In this document: positions 22,935 to 62,139 of the stretch, piece by piece
Numbering within the stretch: position 1 is the stretch's first letter
Layout: each line of letters begins with the position of its first letter
Assembly: GCF_030684675.1 (NCBI RefSeq)
Contig: NZ_JAUXXZ010000006.1
Location: forward strand, 1-64,000
DNA from: Daejeonella sp.
GTDB lineage: Bacteria > Bacteroidota > Bacteroidia > Sphingobacteriales > Sphingobacteriaceae
Length of the DNA: 64,000 nucleotides
Direction: 5' to 3'
Notes under the pieces: generated by a model
Seen by the model: the letters and a program-made list of their open reading frames with translations, nothing else
Database searches by the model: none
Told to the model about the DNA's origin: nothing
Made by a program: the position numbers and the translations under genes

Positions 22935-22962
22935 CAGATAACAGCTAACTGATAACAGCCAA
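22935..22962. repeat. 7-bp-period array (CAGATAA type)
   Basis: Four consecutive heptamers read CAGATAA, CAGCTAA, CTGATAA and CAGCCAA. The array ends 10 bp before the stop of the minus-strand rhodanese-like gene. It belongs to the ATAACAG/ACAACAG unit family found at 34261 and 61646. Confidence 0.7.
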
Positions 22963-22972
22963 CATCTTGAGG

Positions 22973-23437
22973 TTATTTTGCTCCTATTGGATAGCCCTTC
23001 TCGATCCAGTTCTGTTTCAAATTTGTTGGCAGGTTAAGCAGTTTGCCATTTGTGAATCCCATGGTTTTTAGCATGTTTACCGCAGGGCGGATATTTGGAC
23101 ATTTTTCAAACGGACAGCAGCCACAGTAAACGACTAAAAAAGTGTTCTTTGGCAATTTTGACAGTGCATTATTTAACTTTTGGAGATTCTCTTTTTCGCT
23201 TACTCCACCCATATTTATAGCCCCTTTGATATTATCAACCACTCCAATGTTAAATATTTTAGGTTGATTAGCCTTGGGATTAGCGATAATTGCTGCCAAC
23301 GCAGAAGGCTCGATCAGGTCTTTTTGAGTCCAATTGTCTTTTTTGTCTAATGCCTGATTGGCTCTGATGGTAGTTTGAGCCAGGCTCAAGCTAGTTGCTG
23401 ATATGAAAAATAATATGGTGTAAAAAAGAATTTTCAT
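22973..23437 (-). CDS. Periplasmic rhodanese-like protein
   Basis: A 154-residue protein with a signal peptide ending LSLAQ (residue ~21). The body follows the rhodanese fold: EPSALAAII...IFNIGVVDNIKGAINMGGV, a LPKNTFLVVYCGCCPFEKCPNIRPA active loop (~residues 95-120) and a C-terminal LLNLPTNLKQNWIEKGYPIG. The loop holds four cysteines (105, 107, 108, 113), unlike the single catalytic Cys of standard rhodaneses, so it may bind metal or carry out thiol exchange. The TlpA-like thioredoxin encoded 78 bp upstream on the same strand suggests a shared role in periplasmic thiol or sulfur chemistry. Confidence 0.78.
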   Translation of the reverse strand: MKILFYTILFFISATSLSLAQTTIRANQALDKKDNWTQKDLIEPSALAAIIANPKANQPKIFNIGVVDNIKGAINMGGVSEKENLQKLNNALSKLPKNTFLVVYCGCCPFEKCPNIRPAVNMLKTMGFTNGKLLNLPTNLKQNWIEKGYPIGAK

Positions 23438-32385: not shown

Positions 32386-34191
32386 ATGAAATATTTTGTC
32401 TCTTTAATTTTTATTGCCCTTATGTCCAGCTCAGTTCTTGCCCAAAATAAAATTGCTTATGAGGTTTCCTTTACAGAACCTCAGGCTCATTATGCAGAGG
32501 TACTAATGAATATTTCTGGAGTTAAAGCTGCACATATCGATCTAAAAATGCCTGTTTGGACTCCGGGGTCTTATCTGATCAGGGAATTTTCAAAAAATGT
32601 GGAGGGTTTTAAAGCCTTTGGTTCAGGCGGTAAAGAACTTCCATTTGAAAAAATTAACAAAAACACCTGGAGAATCAGTAAAGCAAACTCCGGGATGATA
32701 AAAGTGAGTTACAGGGTATATTCTTTCGAAATATCTGTAAGGACAAGCTTTGTGGATGAATCGCATGCTTTTTTATCTCCAGCAGGAGTTTTTATGTATC
32801 CGGATGGTCAGCTGAATATAGCATCTGAGATCACAATCAATCCTCATAAATCCTGGTCTAAAATATCTACCGGTCTTGAAAAAGTGACTTCAAAGCCAAA
32901 TACTTTTTATGCCCCTGATTTCGATGTGCTTTATGATTCACCTTTCGAAGTAGGGAATCAGGACATTTTTGAATTTGTTGCCGAGGAAGTACGGCATGAG
33001 GTTGCGATGTACGGAAGAGGAAACTATAACAAGGAGATTCTCAAGCGGGATATGGCAAAGATCGTTACAGAACAAACCAGGACTTTTGGTATTAATCCGA
33101 ACAAGCGTTATGTGTTTATTGTTCATAATTTTAATTCCGGAAGTGGCGGACTTGAGCACCTGAATTCAACTGTTTTAGGAGCCAGCCGCAATTCATACAA
33201 TACAGAGACAGGCCTTTTGAGGTTCCTGGGACTTGTTTCTCATGAGTATTTTCATATTTGGAACGTAAAGCGTTTGCGTCCGATAGCATTGGGGCCATTT
33301 AACTATGAGCAGGAGAATTACACCAGAAATCTTTGGATCGCTGAAGGTTTTACGGCTTATTATCAGGATATCTATACCAAAAGGGCTGGTTTACAAAGTC
33401 CGGATCGTTACCTGATGAATTTAGCCGCTTCGATTAGCTCTGTTGAAAATCAGCCGGGGAATCGGATTGAGACTGTTAGCGATGCTAGTTTTGATGCCTG
33501 GATTAAACAATATCGCCCAAATGAAAACTCTGCTAATTCCACTATTTCATATTATAGCAAGGGAGCTCTTATCGCTCTGATTATGGACCTTGAAACCATT
33601 TATTCTACTCAGGCAAAAGCCGGATTGGATGAAGTGATGAAGGCGATGTACGATGAGTATTATACAAAGAAAGGCCGGGGATATACGGATGCCGAGTTTA
33701 AAACAATGCTTGAAAAGGTAGCAGGAAAATCATTTGACGATGTTTACAAAGATTATGTTAACGGCGTAAAGACCATAGATTACAACAAATATTTTGCCTA
33801 TGCCGGATTTACACTGATTGATGATGCGGCTAAAGGTAATGAAGCATATCTGGGAGCGTTAACAGCACTAAAAGATGGTAAGATCATAGTGACAAATGTA
33901 AGTCGCCAGAGCCCGGCATGGATTGCCGGGCTGAATGTGAATGACGAGATACTTTCCATAGATGGAAACCGTATAAATAATGTTTCGGATCCCAGATTAT
34001 CAGAAGTTGAGAAATTCATATCCACTAAAAGTCCCGGTGAAAAAATATTGATATCATTTAATCGTGACGGATTGATAAGACAGACTGAAGTGACGCTGGT
34101 TAGAAATCCAAATCATAGATTTAGAATTGCTTCTTTATCAAATCTTACTGAAGCACAGATTGCTGTGAGGAAGAGGTGGTTGAAACTTTAA
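32386..34191 (+). CDS. M61 family metallopeptidase with PDZ domain
   Basis: A 601-residue exported aminopeptidase-like protein with a signal peptide (1-19, ending SVLAQ). The N-terminal beta domain (20-170) is followed by a thermolysin-like catalytic domain with the zinc motif VSHEYFHIWNVKR (HExxH, ~residue 285) and the third-ligand region LWIAEGFTAYYQDIY (~322). A PDZ domain lies near 490-575 (IIVTNVSRQSPAWIAGLNVNDEILSIDGN). The M61 family includes glycyl aminopeptidases that prefer N-terminal glycine. It is monocistronic, with a heptamer array right after the stop and a strong terminator further on. Confidence 0.94.
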   Translation: MKYFVSLIFIALMSSSVLAQNKIAYEVSFTEPQAHYAEVLMNISGVKAAHIDLKMPVWTPGSYLIREFSKNVEGFKAFGSGGKELPFEKINKNTWRISKANSGMIKVSYRVYSFEISVRTSFVDESHAFLSPAGVFMYPDGQLNIASEITINPHKSWSKISTGLEKVTSKPNTFYAPDFDVLYDSPFEVGNQDIFEFVAEEVRHEVAMYGRGNYNKEILKRDMAKIVTEQTRTFGINPNKRYVFIVHNFNSGSGGLEHLNSTVLGASRNSYNTETGLLRFLGLVSHEYFHIWNVKRLRPIALGPFNYEQENYTRNLWIAEGFTAYYQDIYTKRAGLQSPDRYLMNLAASISSVENQPGNRIETVSDASFDAWIKQYRPNENSANSTISYYSKGALIALIMDLETIYSTQAKAGLDEVMKAMYDEYYTKKGRGYTDAEFKTMLEKVAGKSFDDVYKDYVNGVKTIDYNKYFAYAGFTLIDDAAKGNEAYLGALTALKDGKIIVTNVSRQSPAWIAGLNVNDEILSIDGNRINNVSDPRLSEVEKFISTKSPGEKILISFNRDGLIRQTEVTLVRNPNHRFRIASLSNLTEAQIAVRKRWLKL

Positions 34192-34192
34192 T

Positions 34193-34226
34193 AATTGAGA
34201 ATTGAGAGTGGAGAATTGAGAATGGG
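34193..34226. repeat. 7-bp-period array (AATTGAG type)
   Basis: Beginning 1 bp after the M61 stop: two AATTGAG units, then AGTGGAG, AATTGAG and a degenerate AATGGGT. The AATTGAG-AGTGGAG-AATTGAG core recurs exactly at 44296. Confidence 0.85.
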
Positions 34227-34260
34227 TAACGCGGCCCCTCCAGGCTAATGGTTTATCCTG

Positions 34261-34288
34261 ATAACAGACAACAGATAACAGACAACAA
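34261..34288. repeat. 7-bp-period array (ATAACAG/ACAACAG type)
   Basis: Four heptamers alternate: ATAACAG, ACAACAG, ATAACAG, ACAACAA. It lies 34 bp after the AATTGAG array and directly before a terminator. Confidence 0.85.
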
Positions 34289-40221: not shown

Positions 40222-42627
40222 ATGAAACGAGTCATCAGAAAAGTAGCGGTATTGGGTTCGGGTATAATGGGATCCCGCATTGCATGCCACTTTGCGAATA
40301 TTGGTGTTGAAGTATTGCTGCTTGACATGGTGCCGAAAGAGCTGACAGCCGAGGAGCAGGCAAAAGGTGCTGATCTGAATTCTAAAGCAGTCAGAAATAG
40401 AATTGTCAATTCAGCTCTTGAAAGTACTTTAAAGGCTAATCCATCTGCTGTTTTCTCCAAAAAAGTTGCTGTCAATATATCTACGGGCAATTTCGATGAC
40501 AATATGAAAGATATTGCATCCTGCGATTGGGTGATAGAGGTTGTTGTCGAGAGGCTTGATATTAAAAAATTGATTTATGATCAGGTAGAAAAATTCAGAA
40601 CTCCGGGAACTCTGATCAGTTCTAATACTTCAGGAATTCCGATTCACTTAATGGCTGAAGGACACTCAGAAGATTTTCGTTCGCACTTCTGCGGCACTCA
40701 CTTCTTTAATCCACCGCGATACCTGCGTTTGCTTGAAATCATCCCAACCGCTCAGACAAAACCTGAGATTATTGATTTCCTGATGCATTATGGCGATAAA
40801 TTTCTGGGTAAAACCACAGTATTATGTAAAGATACTCCTGCCTTTATAGCCAACCGTGTTGGTGTTTATTCGATCATGGCACTCCTGCACCTTGTTGAGA
40901 AAATGGATCTTTCGGTTGAGGAGGTTGATAAATATACCGGACCTGCCCTGGGCCGACCAAAATCGGCGACTTTTCGTACTACGGATGTAGTCGGACTAGA
41001 CACGATGATCAATGTAGCCGGTGGATTATATAACAATCTCCCTGATGATAAAGCGCATGATCTGTTTGAACTTCCTGGCTATGTTAAGAAAATGCAGGAG
41101 AACAAATGGCTTGGAGATAAAACAAAGCAGGGTTTTTATAAAAAAGTAAAAGGTACTGACGGGAAATCTGAAATTCTGGCTCTTGATCTTAAAACATTAG
41201 AATATAAAGCTCAGCAGAAAATAAAATCGTCAACACTTGAGGCTACAAAGCTGGTTGAAAATTTGCCTGAGCGGATGAAAGTTTTTGCTAATGGAACTGA
41301 TAAGGCTGCTGATTTCTTCCGCCATTCTTTTTTCGGACTTTTTGAATATGTTTCTGACCGTATTCCTGAAATTTCTGATGAATTATACCGCATTGACGAT
41401 GCAATGAGAGCCGGTTTTGGCTGGGAACTCGGACCATTTGAGGTATGGGATGCAATCGGCGTAAAGAAAGCTATTGAAGGAATGAAGAAATATGGTAATG
41501 AGGCATCAGCATGGGTTCATGAGATGCTTCAGGCCGGAAATGAGTCGTTTTATAAGGTTGAGAATGGTCTTAAGAAGTATTATGATATTCCGTCAAAATC
41601 TTATAAACCGGTTCCCGGGACTGATTCTTTTATTATTCTTGATAATATTCGTCAAACAAATACAATCTGGAAAAATTCAGGAACTACAATTACCGATCTG
41701 GGAGATGGAATACTGAATGTTGAATTTCACACCAAAATGAATACGATTGGCGGTGAGGTTATTCAGGGATTAAATAAAGCAATTGATCTGGCAGAAAAAG
41801 ATTACAGGGGCCTGGTTGTTGGGAATGACGGTGCCAATTTTTCGGCTGGCGCGAATATCGGAATGATATTTATGGCTGCTGTAGAACAGGATTGGGATGA
41901 GATCAACATTGCAATTAAGATGTTTCAGAATACGATGATGCGGATGCGTTATTCAAGTATTCCGGTTGTGGCCGCTCCACATAATCTTACTTTGGGAGGT
42001 GGTTGTGAGTTATGTCTGCATGCAGATTTTGTTCAGGCTAATGCCGAAACTTATATGGGACTGGTTGAATTTGGGGTAGGATTAATTCCGGGTGGAGGAG
42101 GTTCAAAAGAGTTTGCCCTTCGTTTATCGGACGACTTCAAAGAGGGTCAGATAGAGCAGGCAGCACTCAGGGAGCGTTTTTTAACCATCGGACAGGCTAA
42201 AGTTTCTACTTCAGCAGTTGAAGCAGTAGAACTCGGTTACCTGCAAAAGGATAAGTTCGGCATAAGCATGAATCGTAACCGATTGATCGTCGACGCTAAG
42301 GAGAAAGCAATTGAACTTGCTGATGCAGGATATACCAAACCTGTTCAGCGCAAAGATATCAGGGTATTGGGTAAGCAGGGGATGGGTATTGTTTATGCAG
42401 GAGCAAATTCCATGTTCGCCGGAAATTTTATCTCAGAACACGATAAGAAGATATCTGAAAAATTGGGCTATGTTTTGTGCGGAGGAAACCTCTCACAACC
42501 AAGCTTGGTTTCAGAGCAATATTTACTCGATCTGGAAAGGGAAGTTTTCCTTTCACTTTGCGGAGAGAAGAAAACACTCGAGAGAATACAGAGTATTCTG
42601 ACTAAGGGCAAGCCGTTGAGAAATTAG
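40222..42627 (+). CDS. fadN: 3-hydroxyacyl-CoA dehydrogenase / enoyl-CoA hydratase fusion (FadN type)
   Basis: An 801-residue bifunctional beta-oxidation enzyme. The N-terminal NAD-binding domain has VAVLGSGIMGSRIACHFANIG (residues ~8-28), followed by GTHFFNPPRYLRLLEII and the dehydrogenase C-terminal domains (~190-410). The crotonase domain is at the C-terminus (~490-700), with GANFSAGANIGMIF forming the oxyanion hole and MGLVEFGVGLIPGGGGSKE supplying the catalytic acid. The domain order is opposite to E. coli FadB and matches Bacillus FadN (~790 residues). It hydrates enoyl-CoA and oxidises 3-hydroxyacyl-CoA. Its TAG stop is the first three bases of the left 33-bp inverted repeat of the following cassette. 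Confidence 0.95.
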   Translation: MKRVIRKVAVLGSGIMGSRIACHFANIGVEVLLLDMVPKELTAEEQAKGADLNSKAVRNRIVNSALESTLKANPSAVFSKKVAVNISTGNFDDNMKDIASCDWVIEVVVERLDIKKLIYDQVEKFRTPGTLISSNTSGIPIHLMAEGHSEDFRSHFCGTHFFNPPRYLRLLEIIPTAQTKPEIIDFLMHYGDKFLGKTTVLCKDTPAFIANRVGVYSIMALLHLVEKMDLSVEEVDKYTGPALGRPKSATFRTTDVVGLDTMINVAGGLYNNLPDDKAHDLFELPGYVKKMQENKWLGDKTKQGFYKKVKGTDGKSEILALDLKTLEYKAQQKIKSSTLEATKLVENLPERMKVFANGTDKAADFFRHSFFGLFEYVSDRIPEISDELYRIDDAMRAGFGWELGPFEVWDAIGVKKAIEGMKKYGNEASAWVHEMLQAGNESFYKVENGLKKYYDIPSKSYKPVPGTDSFIILDNIRQTNTIWKNSGTTITDLGDGILNVEFHTKMNTIGGEVIQGLNKAIDLAEKDYRGLVVGNDGANFSAGANIGMIFMAAVEQDWDEINIAIKMFQNTMMRMRYSSIPVVAAPHNLTLGGGCELCLHADFVQANAETYMGLVEFGVGLIPGGGGSKEFALRLSDDFKEGQIEQAALRERFLTIGQAKVSTSAVEAVELGYLQKDKFGISMNRNRLIVDAKEKAIELADAGYTKPVQRKDIRVLGKQGMGIVYAGANSMFAGNFISEHDKKISEKLGYVLCGGNLSQPSLVSEQYLLDLEREVFLSLCGEKKTLERIQSILTKGKPLRN

Positions 42628-42662
42628 TATTGAGTAGTTAGTATTGAGTATTGAGTATTGAG
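42625..42662. repeat. Left inverted repeat / TATTGAG heptamer array
   Basis: After TAG, five exact 7-bp units run from 42628 to 42662: TATTGAG, then TAGTTAG, then TATTGAG three times. The first 33 bp (to 42657) match the right repeat perfectly in inverted orientation. Confidence 0.9.
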
Positions 42663-43109: not shown

Positions 43110-44288
43110 ATGGAAGAAGCATATATCATAGCCGCATACAGAACCGCAGTTGGAAAAGCACCCCGCGGAGTATTTCGTTTTACCCGGGCTGATGATCTGG
43201 CGGCAGAAGTGGTCAGATATCTCGTGGCATCAGTACCTGATCTTGATAAGGACCAGATCGATGATGTTATCATCGGAAATGCTACTCCCGAAGCGGAGCA
43301 GGGATTGAATATTGCCCGTATGATCTCTTTAATGGGCCTGGATACGGATAAAGTTCCGGGTGTTACAGTGAACCGTTACTGTGCTTCCGGATTGGAGACT
43401 ATAGCCATTGCGACCGCGAAAATAAGGTCGGGTATGGCTGATTGTATCGTTGCCGGTGGTGTTGAAGTGATGTCGGGTATGCCTTTCGGGGGTTGGAAAC
43501 TTGTTCCGAATGCGGATGTTGCAAAAAATAATCCTGAATGGTATTGGGGAATGGGTCTTACAGCCGAGGCCGTTGCCAAAGAATATAAGGTTAGCCGGGA
43601 AGATCAGGATGAGTTTTCTTTTTATTCGCATCAAAAAGCCATTGCAGCAATAAAGAATGGCCACCTTAAAGACGGACTGATTCCGATTACCATTAAGGAA
43701 ACCTATCTGGATGAAAATTTAAAGCAGAAAACAAGGGAATTTATTGTTGATACAGATGAAGGCCCGAGGGCTGATACCGCAATTGATAAGCTCGCAAATC
43801 TCAAACCGGTATTTGCTGCCGGCGGTTCAGTTACTGCAGGTAATTCATCCCAAACATCTGATGGGGCAGCCTTCGTATTGGTGGTTTCAGAAAAAATGTT
43901 GAAGAAATTAAATGTACAGCCAATTGCGCGCCTGGTAAGTTATGGAGTTGCAGGAGTGCCGCCAAGAATCATGGGTATCGGTCCGATAGAGGCTATTCCA
44001 TTGGCCTTGAAAAAGGCAGGTATGAAGCAGCAGGATCTGGATCTCATTGAGCTGAATGAAGCCTTTGCTTCTCAATCTCTTGCTGTGATAAGAACACTGG
44101 ACTTAGATCAGGACAAAGTAAACGTTAATGGCGGTGCTATAGCCCTTGGTCATCCCCTGGGTTGTACAGGTTCAAAACTGTCTGTTCAGCTTTTCAATGA
44201 ACTGAAGCGAAGAGAAAAGAAATTTGGAATGGTTACCATGTGTGTTGGAACAGGGCAGGGAGCAGCGGGGATATTTGAGGTGATGTAG
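43110..44288 (+). CDS. fadA: Acetyl-CoA acyltransferase (thiolase)
   Basis: A 392-residue thiolase completing beta-oxidation by cleaving 3-ketoacyl-CoA to acetyl-CoA. The nucleophilic Cys is in VNRYCASGLETIA (~residue 91). The other active-site residues are in NEAFASQSLA, GGAIALGHPLGCTGSKL (His) and MCVGTGQGAAGIFE (second Cys). The length fits degradative thiolases. In related operons it directly follows the dehydrogenase/hydratase gene; here 482 bp of inserted cassette separate them. An AATTGAG array begins 8 bp after its stop. Confidence 0.95.
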   Translation: MEEAYIIAAYRTAVGKAPRGVFRFTRADDLAAEVVRYLVASVPDLDKDQIDDVIIGNATPEAEQGLNIARMISLMGLDTDKVPGVTVNRYCASGLETIAIATAKIRSGMADCIVAGGVEVMSGMPFGGWKLVPNADVAKNNPEWYWGMGLTAEAVAKEYKVSREDQDEFSFYSHQKAIAAIKNGHLKDGLIPITIKETYLDENLKQKTREFIVDTDEGPRADTAIDKLANLKPVFAAGGSVTAGNSSQTSDGAAFVLVVSEKMLKKLNVQPIARLVSYGVAGVPPRIMGIGPIEAIPLALKKAGMKQQDLDLIELNEAFASQSLAVIRTLDLDQDKVNVNGGAIALGHPLGCTGSKLSVQLFNELKRREKKFGMVTMCVGTGQGAAGIFEVM

Positions 44289-44295
44289 ATATGGA

Positions 44296-44330
44296 AATTG
44301 AGAGTGGAGAATTGAGAATTGAGAATGGAA
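44296..44330. repeat. 7-bp-period array (AATTGAG type)
   Basis: Units: AATTGAG, AGTGGAG, AATTGAG, AATTGAG, AATGGAA, beginning 7 bp after the thiolase stop. It shares the AATTGAG-AGTGGAG-AATTGAG core with the array at 34193. Confidence 0.85.
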
Positions 44331-44371
44331 TAGGGATAATGGATACTACTAGTATTTAAATTTTAGCAGGA

Positions 44372-44471
44372 TGTCATCCTGAGTGTAACGAAGGAACTTA
44401 GCCATATTTAGAGAAGAGTGACATTGACAAAAGCTATTAGGGGCTAAGATCCCTCCTGCGTCGGGATGGCA
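44372..44471. repeat. MITE-like imperfect inverted repeat
   Basis: Outer arms of ~30 bp (44372-44403 and 44442-44471) are largely complementary around a ~38-bp centre. The right arm's CCCTCCT...CGGGATG block also appears at 22845-22870. No coding capacity. Confidence 0.65.
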
Positions 44472-44587
44472 GCAAGAATGGAATTGAGGCCCGATAGCTT
44501 TCGGGTGGAGAATGAAACAGGCAACTGGTCAAAAAATAGAAAATAAAGAGTAATAAGTTGATCCTTATTCCTTAATCAATTAATTAT

Positions 44588-50686: not shown

Positions 50687-50735
50687 CCATGTCAGTCCGG
50701 GCTTAACCCATGTCAGTCCGGGCTTGACCCGGACT
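50687..50735. repeat. 21-bp tandem duplication ending in a hairpin
   Basis: CCATGTCAGTCCGGGCTTAAC starts at 50687 and is repeated at 50708 with an A-to-G change. In the second copy AGTCCGGG (50715-50722) and CCCGGACT (50728-50735) form a perfect 8-bp stem with a 5-nt loop that reaches into the CBS gene's stop codon. It may act as a transcript end between convergent genes. Confidence 0.7.
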
Positions 50736-55980: not shown

Positions 55981-57210
55981 ATGAGTTTAGTGATCAAAGT
56001 TCCGCCAGTAGGCGAATCTATTTCCGAAGTTACATTGTCCCAGTGGATCAAAAAAGACGGCGATTATGTTGAAATGGACGAAATTATTGCGGAGTTGGAA
56101 TCTGATAAAGCAACATTTGAACTTACAGCAGAAAAGGCCGGAACTTTAAAAACCATTGCAAAAGAGGGTGATACCCTTGAGATTGGTGCACCAGTATGTA
56201 GTATTGAAGAAGACGGAAGTCCGGCAGCTGGTAAACCCGCAGTCGAAGCATCACCTAAAGCTGAAGCACAGAGTCCGGCTATGAAAGTTGAAGATGCAAA
56301 AGCAAGTACTTACGCTTCAGGAGCTCCATCACCATCTGCCGCTAAGATCTTAGCTGAGAAAGGTATTAATCCTGCAGATGTGAATGGAAGTGGAGTAGGA
56401 GGAAGATTAACAAAGGAGGATGCTTTGAATGCATCACCATCCGCTAAAGCTGAAAGCGCTCCTGCAAAACCTGCCGCCGCCGCTCCTGTAGTAAAGGCAA
56501 CCGCAGGTTCAAGAGATGAAAGACGTGAAAAAATGTCTTCATTACGTAAAACCGTTGCCAGACGATTGGTTGCTGTTAAGAATGAAACAGCGATGCTAAC
56601 TACTTTTAATGAAGTAGATATGCAGCCAATTATGGAATTGCGTGCCAAATACAAAGATAAATTTAAAGAAAAGCATGGTGTGGGTTTAGGCTTTATGTCT
56701 TTCTTTACCAAGGCTGTTTGTGAAGCTTTGAAAGATTTCCCATCTGTTAATGCCCGTATTGAAGGTGAAGAAGTTGTATTCAATAATTTTGCAGATATCT
56801 CAATTGCAGTTTCTGCTCCTAAGGGATTGGTGGTTCCTGTAATCCGGAATGCCGAGTCAAAATCTCTTGCAGAGATCGAAGCAGCAGTAATGGAATTGGC
56901 AGTTAAGGCTCGCGACAGTAAATTAACTATTGAAGAGATGACCGGTGGGACATTTACAATCACCAATGGTGGTGTATTTGGTTCAATGATGTCAACTCCA
57001 ATCATAAATGCACCTCAGTCTGCAATTTTGGGGATGCATAATATTGTGGAAAGGCCGGTGGCCCTGAATGGTCAGGTAGTGATCAGGCCAATTATGTATG
57101 TTGCATTATCCTACGATCATCGGATTATTGACGGACGCGAGTCGGTTGGATTCCTGGTGAGGGTGAAGCAATTGCTGGAAGATCCGGCGAGGTTGTTGTT
57201 AGGGGTTTAG
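55981..57210 (+). CDS. sucB: 2-oxoglutarate dehydrogenase E2 (dihydrolipoyl succinyltransferase)
   Basis: A 409-residue E2. The lipoyl domain (1-80) carries the lipoylated Lys in [11 protein letters not shown]. An alanine/proline-rich linker follows (~83-115). The peripheral subunit-binding domain is [33 protein letters not shown] (~117-150), then a second linker. The catalytic domain (~180-409) holds [13 protein letters not shown] and the active-site [13 protein letters not shown], whose His and Asp transfer the succinyl group to CoA. It is part of the sucAB operon; a heptamer array starts directly after its stop, followed by a strong terminator. Confidence 0.96.
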
Positions 57211-57245
57211 GCTGAAAGCTAAAAGCTTAAAGCAGAAAGCGAAAA
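57211..57245. repeat. 7-bp-period array (GCTTAAA type)
   Basis: Five heptamers abut the sucB stop codon: GCTGAAA, GCTAAAA, GCTTAAA, GCAGAAA, GCGAAAA. The same unit family follows lpdA at 61557. Confidence 0.85.
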
Positions 57246-57248
57246 GAA

Positions 57249-57287
57249 AAAAAGGGTACTTCATTTTATATGAAGTACCCTTTTTAA
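57249..57287. terminator. Strong bidirectional terminator
   Basis: A 15-bp perfect stem (57249-57263 and 57271-57285, core GGGTACTTCA / TGAAGTACCC) with a 7-nt loop, A-rich on the left and T-rich on the right. It ends the sucAB operon and the convergent DUF2807 gene. Confidence 0.95.
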
Positions 57288-59904: not shown

Positions 59905-60120
59905 ATCTGTCAGAATTAGGATTAATATGATTTGTAGGATTATAGGATTAGAATGATTTTTTTCATTAGAGAAGTGTTCTTAATCCTACTAATCCAATAC
60001 TCCTATTAATCCTAATTTTTTAGGATTAGGATAATTGTAATGATTCATAATTCTTATTCGTTTTCGTTAGAGATTGTTCCTAATCCTGGTAATCCAATAA
60101 TCCTATTAATCCTAATATTT
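59905..60120. repeat. GGATTA/TAATCC interspersed repeat cluster
   Basis: Two 43-bp copies (59978-60020 and 60078-60120) share TAATCCT...AATCCAATA..CCTATTAATCCTAAT, and inverted GGATTA-type units lie at 59917-59960 and 60021-60032. TAATCCTAA/TTAGGATTA can pair as a hairpin near 60007-60028. This ~315-bp divergent spacer between the M1 peptidase and lpdA holds no gene; the lpdA promoter follows the repeats. Confidence 0.75.
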
Positions 60121-60152: not shown

Positions 60153-61556
60153 ATGCAATTCGACGTAATAGTTATAGGTAGTGGTCCGGGTGGTTATGTT
60201 GCCGCCATTCGTTGTGCCCAATTGGGATTAAAAACAGCACTAATTGAAAAATACAGTACTTATGGTGGTACCTGCTTAAATGTGGGATGTATTCCATCCA
60301 AGGCTTTATTGGACTCCTCAGAACACTATCATAATGCCCTGCACACATTCAAAGAACATGGTATCAATCTGAAGGACCTTAAGCCCGACCTGAAACAAAT
60401 GGTGAAGCGTAAGGATGAGGTTGTTGCCCACACCACAGGTGGAATTGCATTCCTTTTAAAGAAAAACAAGGTCAGTACCTATCAGGGAATGGGATCTATG
60501 GTCGATAAAAATACAGTGAAGGTTAATAAGGCCGATGGAACATCAGAAACCCTGACGGGTAAAAATGTGATCATCGCTACCGGTTCAAAGCCAACACAGC
60601 TTCCTTTCCTCAAAACCGATGGTAAGCGGATTGTAACTTCAACAGAGGCATTGAATTTAAGCGAAATTCCAAAACACCTGATTCTGATCGGTGGAGGTGT
60701 TATCGGACTTGAGCTGGGCTCTGTTTATGCCCGTTTGGGGTCAAAAGTGACTGTCGTAGAATTTATGGACTCTATTATCGGTACGATGGACAAGAGTTTG
60801 GGTAAAGAACTCCAAAAAGTTCTTGCTAAACAGGGTATGGAGTTCTTGTTAAGTCATAAAGTTACCGGAGCAAGTGTAAAAGGGAATAAGGTAACTGTAA
60901 CTGCGGATAGTCCGAAAGGTGAAAAAATCAGTCTGGAAGGTGATTATTGCCTCGTAGCGGTAGGCCGTGTGGCTTACACTGAAAATCTGGGTCTTGAGAA
61001 TATTGGAATCACTTTAGATGAGCGTGGTAAAAAGATCCCGGTTAATGAGCATCTTGAAACCGCTGTTCCCGGAGTTTACGCCATTGGTGATGTTATCAAA
61101 GGTGCCATGCTAGCTCATAAAGCTGAAGATGAAGGAACTTTTGTGGCTGAAGTTATTGCCGGACAAAAACCACATATCAATTATAATCTGATCCCCGGAG
61201 TAGTTTATACCTGGCCTGAAGTGGCGAGTGTAGGCTATACCGAAGAGCAATTGAAAGAAAGCGGCACCAAATACAAGAGCGGTTCATTCCCCTTCAAAGC
61301 CAGCGGACGTGCCAGGGCAAGTAATGATTCAGACGGATTTATTAAAGTGCTTGCGGATGCATCCACCGACGAAATCCTGGGAGTACATATGATCGGACCA
61401 AGAGCTGCTGATATGATTGCTGAGGCGGTTGTAGCAATGGAATTCAGGGCGTCTGCAGAAGATATTGCAAGGATCTCCCATGCGCACCCAACTTATACCG
61501 AGGCATTTAAAGAGGCAAGTATGGCGGCTACGGAGAATAGAGCGATACATATTTGA
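60153..61556 (+). CDS. lpdA: Dihydrolipoyl dehydrogenase (E3)
   Basis: A 467-residue flavoprotein reoxidising dihydrolipoamide of 2-oxoacid dehydrogenase complexes. FAD site DVIVIGSGPGGYVAAIRCAQLG (residues 4-25); redox disulfide GGTCLNVGCIPSKALL (Cys ~41 and ~46); NAD-binding LILIGGGVIGLELGSVYARLGSKVTVVE; second FAD segment GVYAIGDVIKGAMLAHKAEDEG; active-site His-Glu in ISHAHPTYTEAFKEA. It lies 3 kb from sucAB, separated by two minus-strand genes, and is transcribed separately. Confidence 0.97.
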   Translation: MQFDVIVIGSGPGGYVAAIRCAQLGLKTALIEKYSTYGGTCLNVGCIPSKALLDSSEHYHNALHTFKEHGINLKDLKPDLKQMVKRKDEVVAHTTGGIAFLLKKNKVSTYQGMGSMVDKNTVKVNKADGTSETLTGKNVIIATGSKPTQLPFLKTDGKRIVTSTEALNLSEIPKHLILIGGGVIGLELGSVYARLGSKVTVVEFMDSIIGTMDKSLGKELQKVLAKQGMEFLLSHKVTGASVKGNKVTVTADSPKGEKISLEGDYCLVAVGRVAYTENLGLENIGITLDERGKKIPVNEHLETAVPGVYAIGDVIKGAMLAHKAEDEGTFVAEVIAGQKPHINYNLIPGVVYTWPEVASVGYTEEQLKESGTKYKSGSFPFKASGRARASNDSDGFIKVLADASTDEILGVHMIGPRAADMIAEAVVAMEFRASAEDIARISHAHPTYTEAFKEASMAATENRAIHI

Positions 61557-61605
61557 GCTTAAAGCTTAAAGCTTAAAGCTCAAAGCAGAAAGCTTAAAGC
61601 TAAAA
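61557..61605. repeat. 7-bp-period array (GCTTAAA type)
   Basis: Seven heptamers directly abut the lpdA stop: GCTTAAA three times, then GCTCAAA, GCAGAAA, GCTTAAA and GCTAAAA. Confidence 0.9.
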
Positions 61606-61645
61606 GTCCACTGATGAGATATTCTTCTTAAAGTAGTTATTACTG

Positions 61646-61673
61646 ACAACAGGTAACAGACAACAGATAACAG
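61646..61673. repeat. 7-bp-period array (ATAACAG/ACAACAG type)
   Basis: Units ACAACAG, GTAACAG, ACAACAG, ATAACAG, 40 bp after the GCTTAAA array. The pairing of two array types mirrors 34193-34288. Confidence 0.85.
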
Positions 61674-61695
61674 ATTCAGAAAGAGATAACCAACT

Positions 61696-62139
61696 ATGCA
61701 GATTGTCTTTCATATTGCAATAATCCTTCTCACCATTGCAACTATGGAGGCATTTTCATGGTTTATTCATAAGTATCTGTTTCACGGGCCCTTATGGTTT
61801 ATACATAAAAGCCATCATATTGAGCGGAAAGGTTGGTTTGAGTTTAATGATGTATTTAGTCTGCTCTTTGCAGCCATATCCCTGTATCTGATGTGGGAGG
61901 GAAGGCTGGATTTAAGTTATAAATTTTGGATAGGGCTTGGGATTTCAGTGTATGGAATGATTTATTTTATTTTTCATGATTGGTTCATACACAATCGTTT
62001 TAAGAGTTTTAAATCCGGCAACCCTTACCTTTTAGGAATCAGAAGGGCACATAAGATCCATCACAAGTCAACTAAAAAGAACCCTTCCGAAGAATTCGGA
62101 CTGCTGTTGGCATCCAAAAAGTATTTCAGTCCGAAATAA
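61696..62139 (+). CDS. CrtZ-like beta-carotene hydroxylase / sterol desaturase family
   Basis: A 147-residue membrane protein with four helices and the diiron histidine motifs of carotenoid hydroxylases: FIHKYLFHG, FIHKSHHIE, FHDWFIHNRF and AHKIHHKS. It adds hydroxyl groups to the beta rings of carotenoids, giving zeaxanthin. The size and motif order fit bacterial CrtZ (~150-175 residues), though slightly short. No other carotenoid genes are in the window. It precedes murB by 28 bp, possibly in one transcript. Confidence 0.88.
   Translation: MQIVFHIAIILLTIATMEAFSWFIHKYLFHGPLWFIHKSHHIERKGWFEFNDVFSLLFAAISLYLMWEGRLDLSYKFWIGLGISVYGMIYFIFHDWFIHNRFKSFKSGNPYLLGIRRAHKIHHKSTKKNPSEEFGLLLASKKYFSPK

Follow-up and report, generated by a model that had tools for sequence, protein, structure and literature searches.

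Inverted heptamer arrays around four-helix-bundle genes at gene junctions of Daejeonella and other bacteria

The 64,000-nucleotide stretch of a Daejeonella sp. contig analysed here (NZ_JAUXXZ010000006.1, positions 1 to 64,000; hereafter the window) contains nine intergenic arrays of degenerate 7-bp units, several of which start at a stop codon. What are these arrays, and how did they come to lie at gene boundaries? Bacterial heptamer arrays have been on record for decades and, to our knowledge, their spread has no accepted explanation. One pair in the window flanks a gene of the S23/IVP four-helix-bundle (4HB) family, for which we know of no function.

Period-7 arrays in the window and its host genome

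Tandem Repeats Finder returned period-7 arrays at each of the nine places pointed out in a preliminary description of the window (22935, 34193, 34263, 42626, 43072, 44296, 57211, 61556 and 61648; Table 1). According to that description, four arrays begin within one base of a stop codon and one more lies 7 bp past a stop; the ORF ends, at 34191, 42627, 57210 and 61556 for the four and at 44288 for the array at 44296, agree. It had also sorted the arrays into three heptamer families, but the pair at 42626 and 43072 belongs to a fourth (AGTATTG/TACTCAA). The two arrays of this pair are in inverted orientation on either side of the 4HB gene, and this bracketing provided the key to what follows.

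Table 1. Features of the window
Feature	Positions	Strand	Basis
Array CAGATAACAGCTAACTGATAACAGCC, adjoining the end of the minus-strand ORF 22973-23437	22935..22963	-	Tandem Repeats Finder, sequence
Gene-less array AATTGAG, directly after the M61 peptidase gene stop	34193..34223	+	Tandem Repeats Finder, sequence
Partner array of another family (GATAACAGACAACA), C-rich orientation	34260..34287	-	Tandem Repeats Finder, sequence
Left (5') arm, AGTATTG heptamer array	42616..42662	+	Tandem Repeats Finder, sequence; starts at the fadB-like gene stop (gene 40222-42627)
Four-helix-bundle gene (23S_rRNA_IVP, PF05635; TIGR02436), about 119 aa	42690..43049	+	Pfam, NCBIfam, solved relatives, dN/dS
Right (3') arm, inverted family TACTCAA	43072..43103	-	Tandem Repeats Finder; sequence; inverted alignment
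Gene-less array AATTGAG, after the thiolase stop	44296..44326	+	Tandem Repeats Finder; orthologous junctions in relatives
Gene-less GCTTAAA-type array, 1 bp past the stop at 57210	57211..57252	+	Tandem Repeats Finder, sequence
Gene-less array AGCTTAA, at the stop of a dihydrolipoamide-dehydrogenase-like gene	61556..61606	+	Tandem Repeats Finder, sequence
Array GACAACAGATAACAG, shortly ahead of the ORF starting at 61696	61645..61690	-	Tandem Repeats Finder, sequence

We scanned 823,687 bases of the host genome (G000; 84 contigs, 4.25 Mb) for tandem arrays at a score threshold of 10. Intergenic DNA contained 72 arrays of period 7, as compared with one of period 5, one of period 6, two of period 8 and none to five for each of the periods 9 to 12, and shuffled intergenic DNA was expected to yield only 0.25 arrays of period 7. 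Period 7 is therefore specific and far above chance. The inference that an active process favours a 7-bp unit, which would have fallen had other periods or shuffled DNA done as well, is supported. Chance and generic microsatellites are ruled out by the period counts, the shuffles and the flank control presented below. We also considered that the arrays might be stop-codon insulators, as the heptamers often hold stops in the coding direction. Yet AGAATCA and similar heptamers have no stops on that strand, so that this reading is not general.

The arrays of the host genome occupy defined positions. Where the coding strand of an array is G-rich, the array begins between 13 bp upstream and 7 bp downstream of a stop codon; C-rich arrays end a few bases ahead of a start codon. 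The order in a gap is gene, stop, '>' array, '<' array, start; among neighbouring pairs, 14 are arranged '> <' and two '< >'. Some '> <' pairs, such as 34193/34263, join two unlike heptamer families and cannot form the hairpin.

The window holds other repeats as well. Period-9 arrays (TAGGATTTA and TAATCCTAA) lie in opposite orientations at 59917-60117, upstream of the ORF at 60153, and may represent a gene-less element built on a different period. A 21-bp repeat (CCATGTCAGTCCGGGCTTAAC) occurs in two copies at 50687-50730.

A 4HB gene between inverted arms

The window cassette lies between a fadB-like and a thiolase gene, its right arm ending 6 bp ahead of the thiolase start at 43110. Its protein matches PF05635 (E 3.8e-42, 143 bits; cut-off 33.8) and TIGR02436 (3e-39, 133.6 bits; cut-off 24), meeting both family criteria, and is related to the solved structures 2gsc and 2rld; phage records gave no match to it. 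The dN/dS ratio is 0.05 against the orthologue in the relative G002 and ranges from 0.05 to 0.26 in 12 pairs of 4HB genes, indicating purifying selection. The arms align with a score of 34 when inverted, versus 10-11 in direct orientation. In the predicted fold of the cassette RNA (-139.6 kcal/mol versus -97.1 for shuffles; z -7.3), they form a closing stem of 34 bp. Two gene-less mini-elements were also predicted to fold (z -11.4 and -4.5), and no fold was predicted for a lone solo arm.

The preliminary description had raised the possibility of a link between the arrays and a four-helix-bundle cassette, and the rest of the host genome bears this out. It encodes nine PF05635 members, and by eye all nine genes are bracketed by inverted arrays of one family. 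With a uniform flank definition, an inverted score of at least 15 was reached by eight of the nine, as against 32 of 616 other genes (5%). The ninth fell below the cut-off because its ORF call extends into the array, and scored 23 with a corrected flank.

The same arrangement was found beyond this genome. In the genus, 56 of 65 4HB loci scored at least 17 in inverted orientation, versus 12 of 65 in direct orientation and 10% of mismatched loci. In a set of 80 loci from GTDB genomes, at least 53 had an inverted score of at least 17, versus 7.9% under the null; the dominant arm period was 7 in 48 of 61 loci, 8 in five and 9 in one. The latter set was found with the window protein and is thus biased to relatives of one protein, and its loci, which share junctions, are not independent (34 upstream contexts in all). 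At the thresholds used, about one fifth to one third of 4HB loci had no clear arms.

Position and orientation were equally regular. Left arms in the GTDB set started at a median of -1 bp from the upstream stop (within 10 bp in 48 of 60), right arms ended at a median of 12.5 bp ahead of the next start, and the strand context was (+,+) for 75 of the 80 loci. In co-directional gaps of the genus, the 4HB gene was sense in 45 cases and antisense in eight; at cyanobacterial loci, it was antisense to its neighbours in three of 11.

Cyanobacterial plasmids carry 4HB genes between nrdB and nrdA, cas6 and cas4, or cmr2 and cmr3. Several are flanked by heptamers of the short-tandem-repeat (STRR) type (GGGAGTA/TACTCCC, AGGGAAC/GTTCCCT, AAAGCTA, GGAGATA), so that the comparison with STRRs made at the outset fits; at several other loci, the arms are weak or absent. 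At three of the plasmid loci (L324, L325 and L330), the 4HB genes lie between CRISPR genes (cas6/cas4, cmr2/cmr3) and might be taken for genes of Cas accessory proteins.

These observations show a cassette anatomy, a heptamer array followed by a 4HB gene and by the same array inverted, that recurs across Bacteroidota and at several loci on cyanobacterial plasmids. They support a refined form of the earlier interpretation, in which the arrays are inverted cassette ends. By inference, the solo arrays are probably derivatives of the cassette that lack the gene. The 4HB family itself was present in 116 of 148 Bacteroidota genomes sampled. Gene-less arrays numbered none in 360 kb of genomes free of 4HB genes and two in 400 kb of the other 4HB-bearing Bacteroidota sampled. 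Their genome-wide proliferation looks genus-specific, abundance having been seen only in this genus.

Turnover and inheritance of the cassettes

At the fadB/fadA junction, a 4HB gene or its remnant was present in all 11 relatives read and in G012. The relatives have three 4HB protein types and at least four array families there, and the two arms agree in family wherever they are clear. At the next junction, after the thiolase gene, several relatives carry another 4HB cassette where the window has the 44296 array; nothing but arrays or remnants is present there in G000, G004, G005, G007 and G011. Two further observations concern this junction. A dispersed sequence of palindromic type (gatgtcatcctgagtgtaacgaagg...) adjoins the 44296 array at 44360-44500, and parts of it also occur at the G007 junction. 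In G001 (L084), several near-identical gene-less mini-hairpins stand in tandem around the 4HB gene, which suggests local amplification.

Elsewhere, sister species with flanks 88-97% identical have a different 4HB type and different arms (sites c2, c3 and c9), and one relative has the interior reversed (site c7). Array families are swapped at the gene-less junctions s3, s6 and s11. The junction of the 34193 array has an AGATATG-family array in G007 and a TTGACAG-like array in G010, and is 45 bp long without an array in G001. At 57211, G001 and G004 have no array and G007 has one of the AGTTATA family at the same spot, and at 61556 the junction is short and without an array in G001 and G005. Heptamer arrays also flank an rplP-like gene in an apparent ribosomal-protein operon (L072, 18717-19288); at this site (s14), G010 lacks the upstream array.

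Two copies in the host genome, L004 and L007, align only from 1397 to 1934, with both ends inside arrays. Copies that share only the element at different sites, together with empty sites in relatives, satisfy one of the criteria for a transposon. Neither a transposase or reverse transcriptase nor a target duplication was identified for the cassette; array ends would blur such a duplication.

We then compared arm families with the proteins that they enclose. Among pairs of non-orthologous loci, the array family was common to 50% of those with a protein identity of at least 0.62, versus 0.6% of those below 0.55 (permutation p=0.0005). A rank correlation of array sharing with protein identity over all such pairs did not reach significance (p 0.11). 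Since sharing is confined to close proteins, the thresholded permutation test replaced the rank correlation, and its threshold was picked after the latter result was known. A comparison of own-arm with same-family-arm matches was discarded, as it was confounded by inverted orthologous loci. Arm family goes with protein type, and the unit is swapped or lost over the times in which species diverge; its junction position and the selection on its gene are likewise observed.

A proposed origin of the arrays and its alternatives

We hypothesize, with some confidence and short of certainty, that the arrays serve as arms of a cassette resembling the intervening sequences (IVSs) of 23S rRNA, which sits at gene junctions, is copied, replaced or lost there, and leaves gene-less derivatives. 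As the cassette lies between genes and usually in sense orientation, it could be transcribed as part of the host operon. Once in the mRNA, its arms could pair into a stem around the 4HB frame that brings the upstream stop near the downstream start; this hairpin is inferred from the predicted fold, and its geometry would be that of the 23S rRNA IVSs which encode proteins of this family and are processed by RNase III. A stem bridging stop and start codons would make an insertion between genes tolerable. By analogy with the IVSs, the stem might be processed by RNase III in the cell, and the 4HB protein may act on its own stem or arms. The unit would be copied from junction to junction by an enzyme that has not been identified, mobility itself being inferred, and the gene-less arrays and mini-hairpins would derive from cassettes. 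Slippage by 7 nt together with template switching from arm to arm could make both arms change family together. Several observations weigh against the hypothesis: no mover has been identified, some array pairs join unlike families, gene-less arrays are scarce in the other 4HB-rich Bacteroidota sampled, and a part of the 4HB loci have no clear arms.

The cassette could instead serve the host mainly as a regulatory or spacer element of operon junctions. Pairing of its arms would then adjust how the mRNA is processed or how the translation of subunit genes is coupled, the 4HB protein would bind the stem of its own cassette, and movement would be rare. We regard this as unlikely, though it cannot be set aside. 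The strong purifying selection on the 4HB gene and the abutment of arrays on stop and start codons would suit such a role, as would a precedent, the STRR hairpins between hupS and hupL, for which effects on transcript stability or translational coupling have been suggested (PMC2670836). Junctions are also reused across the phylum (fadB/fadA in 23 of the 80 GTDB loci, fadA/acyl-CoA dehydrogenase in eight, sdhA/sdhB-like in six), and the retention of a 4HB gene at some of them argues for long residence, perhaps for a host function, rather than for frequent jumping. Yet sister species have different protein types, different array families or nothing at the same junction, and L004 and L007 have only the cassette in common.

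Another possibility is a trans-acting mover of the arrays, either a Y1 transposase or a reverse transcriptase, to which the 4HB protein would be an Avd-like accessory. A gene between inverted short repeats, accompanied by many dispersed gene-less copies, does resemble REPIN/RAYT systems, and homology of PF05635 to Avd of diversity-generating retroelements, a related four-helix-bundle fold family, is on record (PMC10053308). However, the cassette has no HUH nuclease, its arms are tandem arrays tied to gene junctions rather than single palindromes, and the repeat-flanked gene belongs to PF05635 instead of being a Y1/HUH transposase. The matches of the 4HB protein to the Avd and bAvd models are weak and below their cut-offs (30.9 bits for 80 and 38.5 for 40, respectively), so that it does not qualify as part of such a retroelement. 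Furthermore, RVT_1 is absent from 11 of 13 genus genomes, including G000, and Y1_Tnp from three of 13, while all 13 have 4HB genes. Neither enzyme is supported as the mover, and we consider this explanation improbable. Least probable of all is replication slippage in 7-nt steps that has nothing to do with the 4HB gene. In its favour, heptamers outnumber other long simple repeats in many bacteria, and polymerase slippage has been proposed to account for them (Mrazek et al. 2007, cited in PMC4679880). Alone, it leaves unexplained the same-family arrays inverted on both sides of 4HB genes, on which the inverted-flank controls largely refute it, the exact abutment on stop codons, the association with protein type and the near-absence of such arrays in most other Bacteroidota sampled.

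The IVS-like cassette that we favour can be set against described systems. The 23S rRNA IVS of Coxiella contains an S23p ORF, has an inverted-repeat stem and is excised by RNase III; it carries three to four tandem GACAGAT heptamers at its 5' arm, and how it arose is said to be unclear, transposition being one of the ideas put forward (PMC4990558). Like the IVSs of Leptospira and Coxiella, the cassette combines the same protein family with an inverted-repeat stem enclosing the ORF, at a comparable size, and it satisfies the IVS criterion of an S23p/IVP ORF within complementary, stem-forming ends (on the prediction given above). Unlike them, it is found at junctions of protein genes, as in the window, and not inside a 23S rRNA gene. 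It also has long heptamer-array arms of many families, occurs in several copies per genome with gene-less derivatives, and its ORF is under purifying selection instead of decaying.

The heptamers of Xanthomonas and Beggiatoaceae and the STRRs of cyanobacteria have been described without a partner gene (PMC2670836, PMC4692102, PMC4679880); those of Xanthomonas campestris include GGGAATC (PMC4692102). The window arrays fit the definition of STRRs as tandem degenerate 7-bp units in intergenic DNA, and share with them the capacity to form hairpins and a location between subunit genes such as hupS and hupL (PMC2670836); unlike STRRs as described, the cassette heptamers bracket 4HB genes, those on cyanobacterial plasmids included. 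The TAACTGA repeats of Beggiatoaceae and of some Cyanobacteria and Bacteroidetes (PMC4679880) are similar in forming heptamer arrays near start codons and in their scattered taxonomic distribution, but consist of one fixed heptamer for which no gene partner was proposed. In the full-text literature searched, we found no account of 4HB genes enclosed by inverted heptamer arrays; subscription papers were not covered, so that priority is not proven.

More tentatively, and as a possibility on which we would not yet insist, heptamer-armed 4HB cassettes may form a large, unrecognised class of mobile elements. Their tandem-array ends would be inherited with the protein, and they would enter operon junctions in sense orientation, bridged by an RNA stem, without a known transposase. 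Such a class would unify IVSs, STRRs and other heptamers, and the function of the S23/IVP family. It would also account for the presence of 4HB genes within fadBA, nrd, cas and similar operons. With one cassette for both, the arrays gain a candidate source, the inverted arms become a candidate substrate for the 4HB protein of their own cassette, and the origin of the 23S rRNA intervening sequences becomes directly testable.
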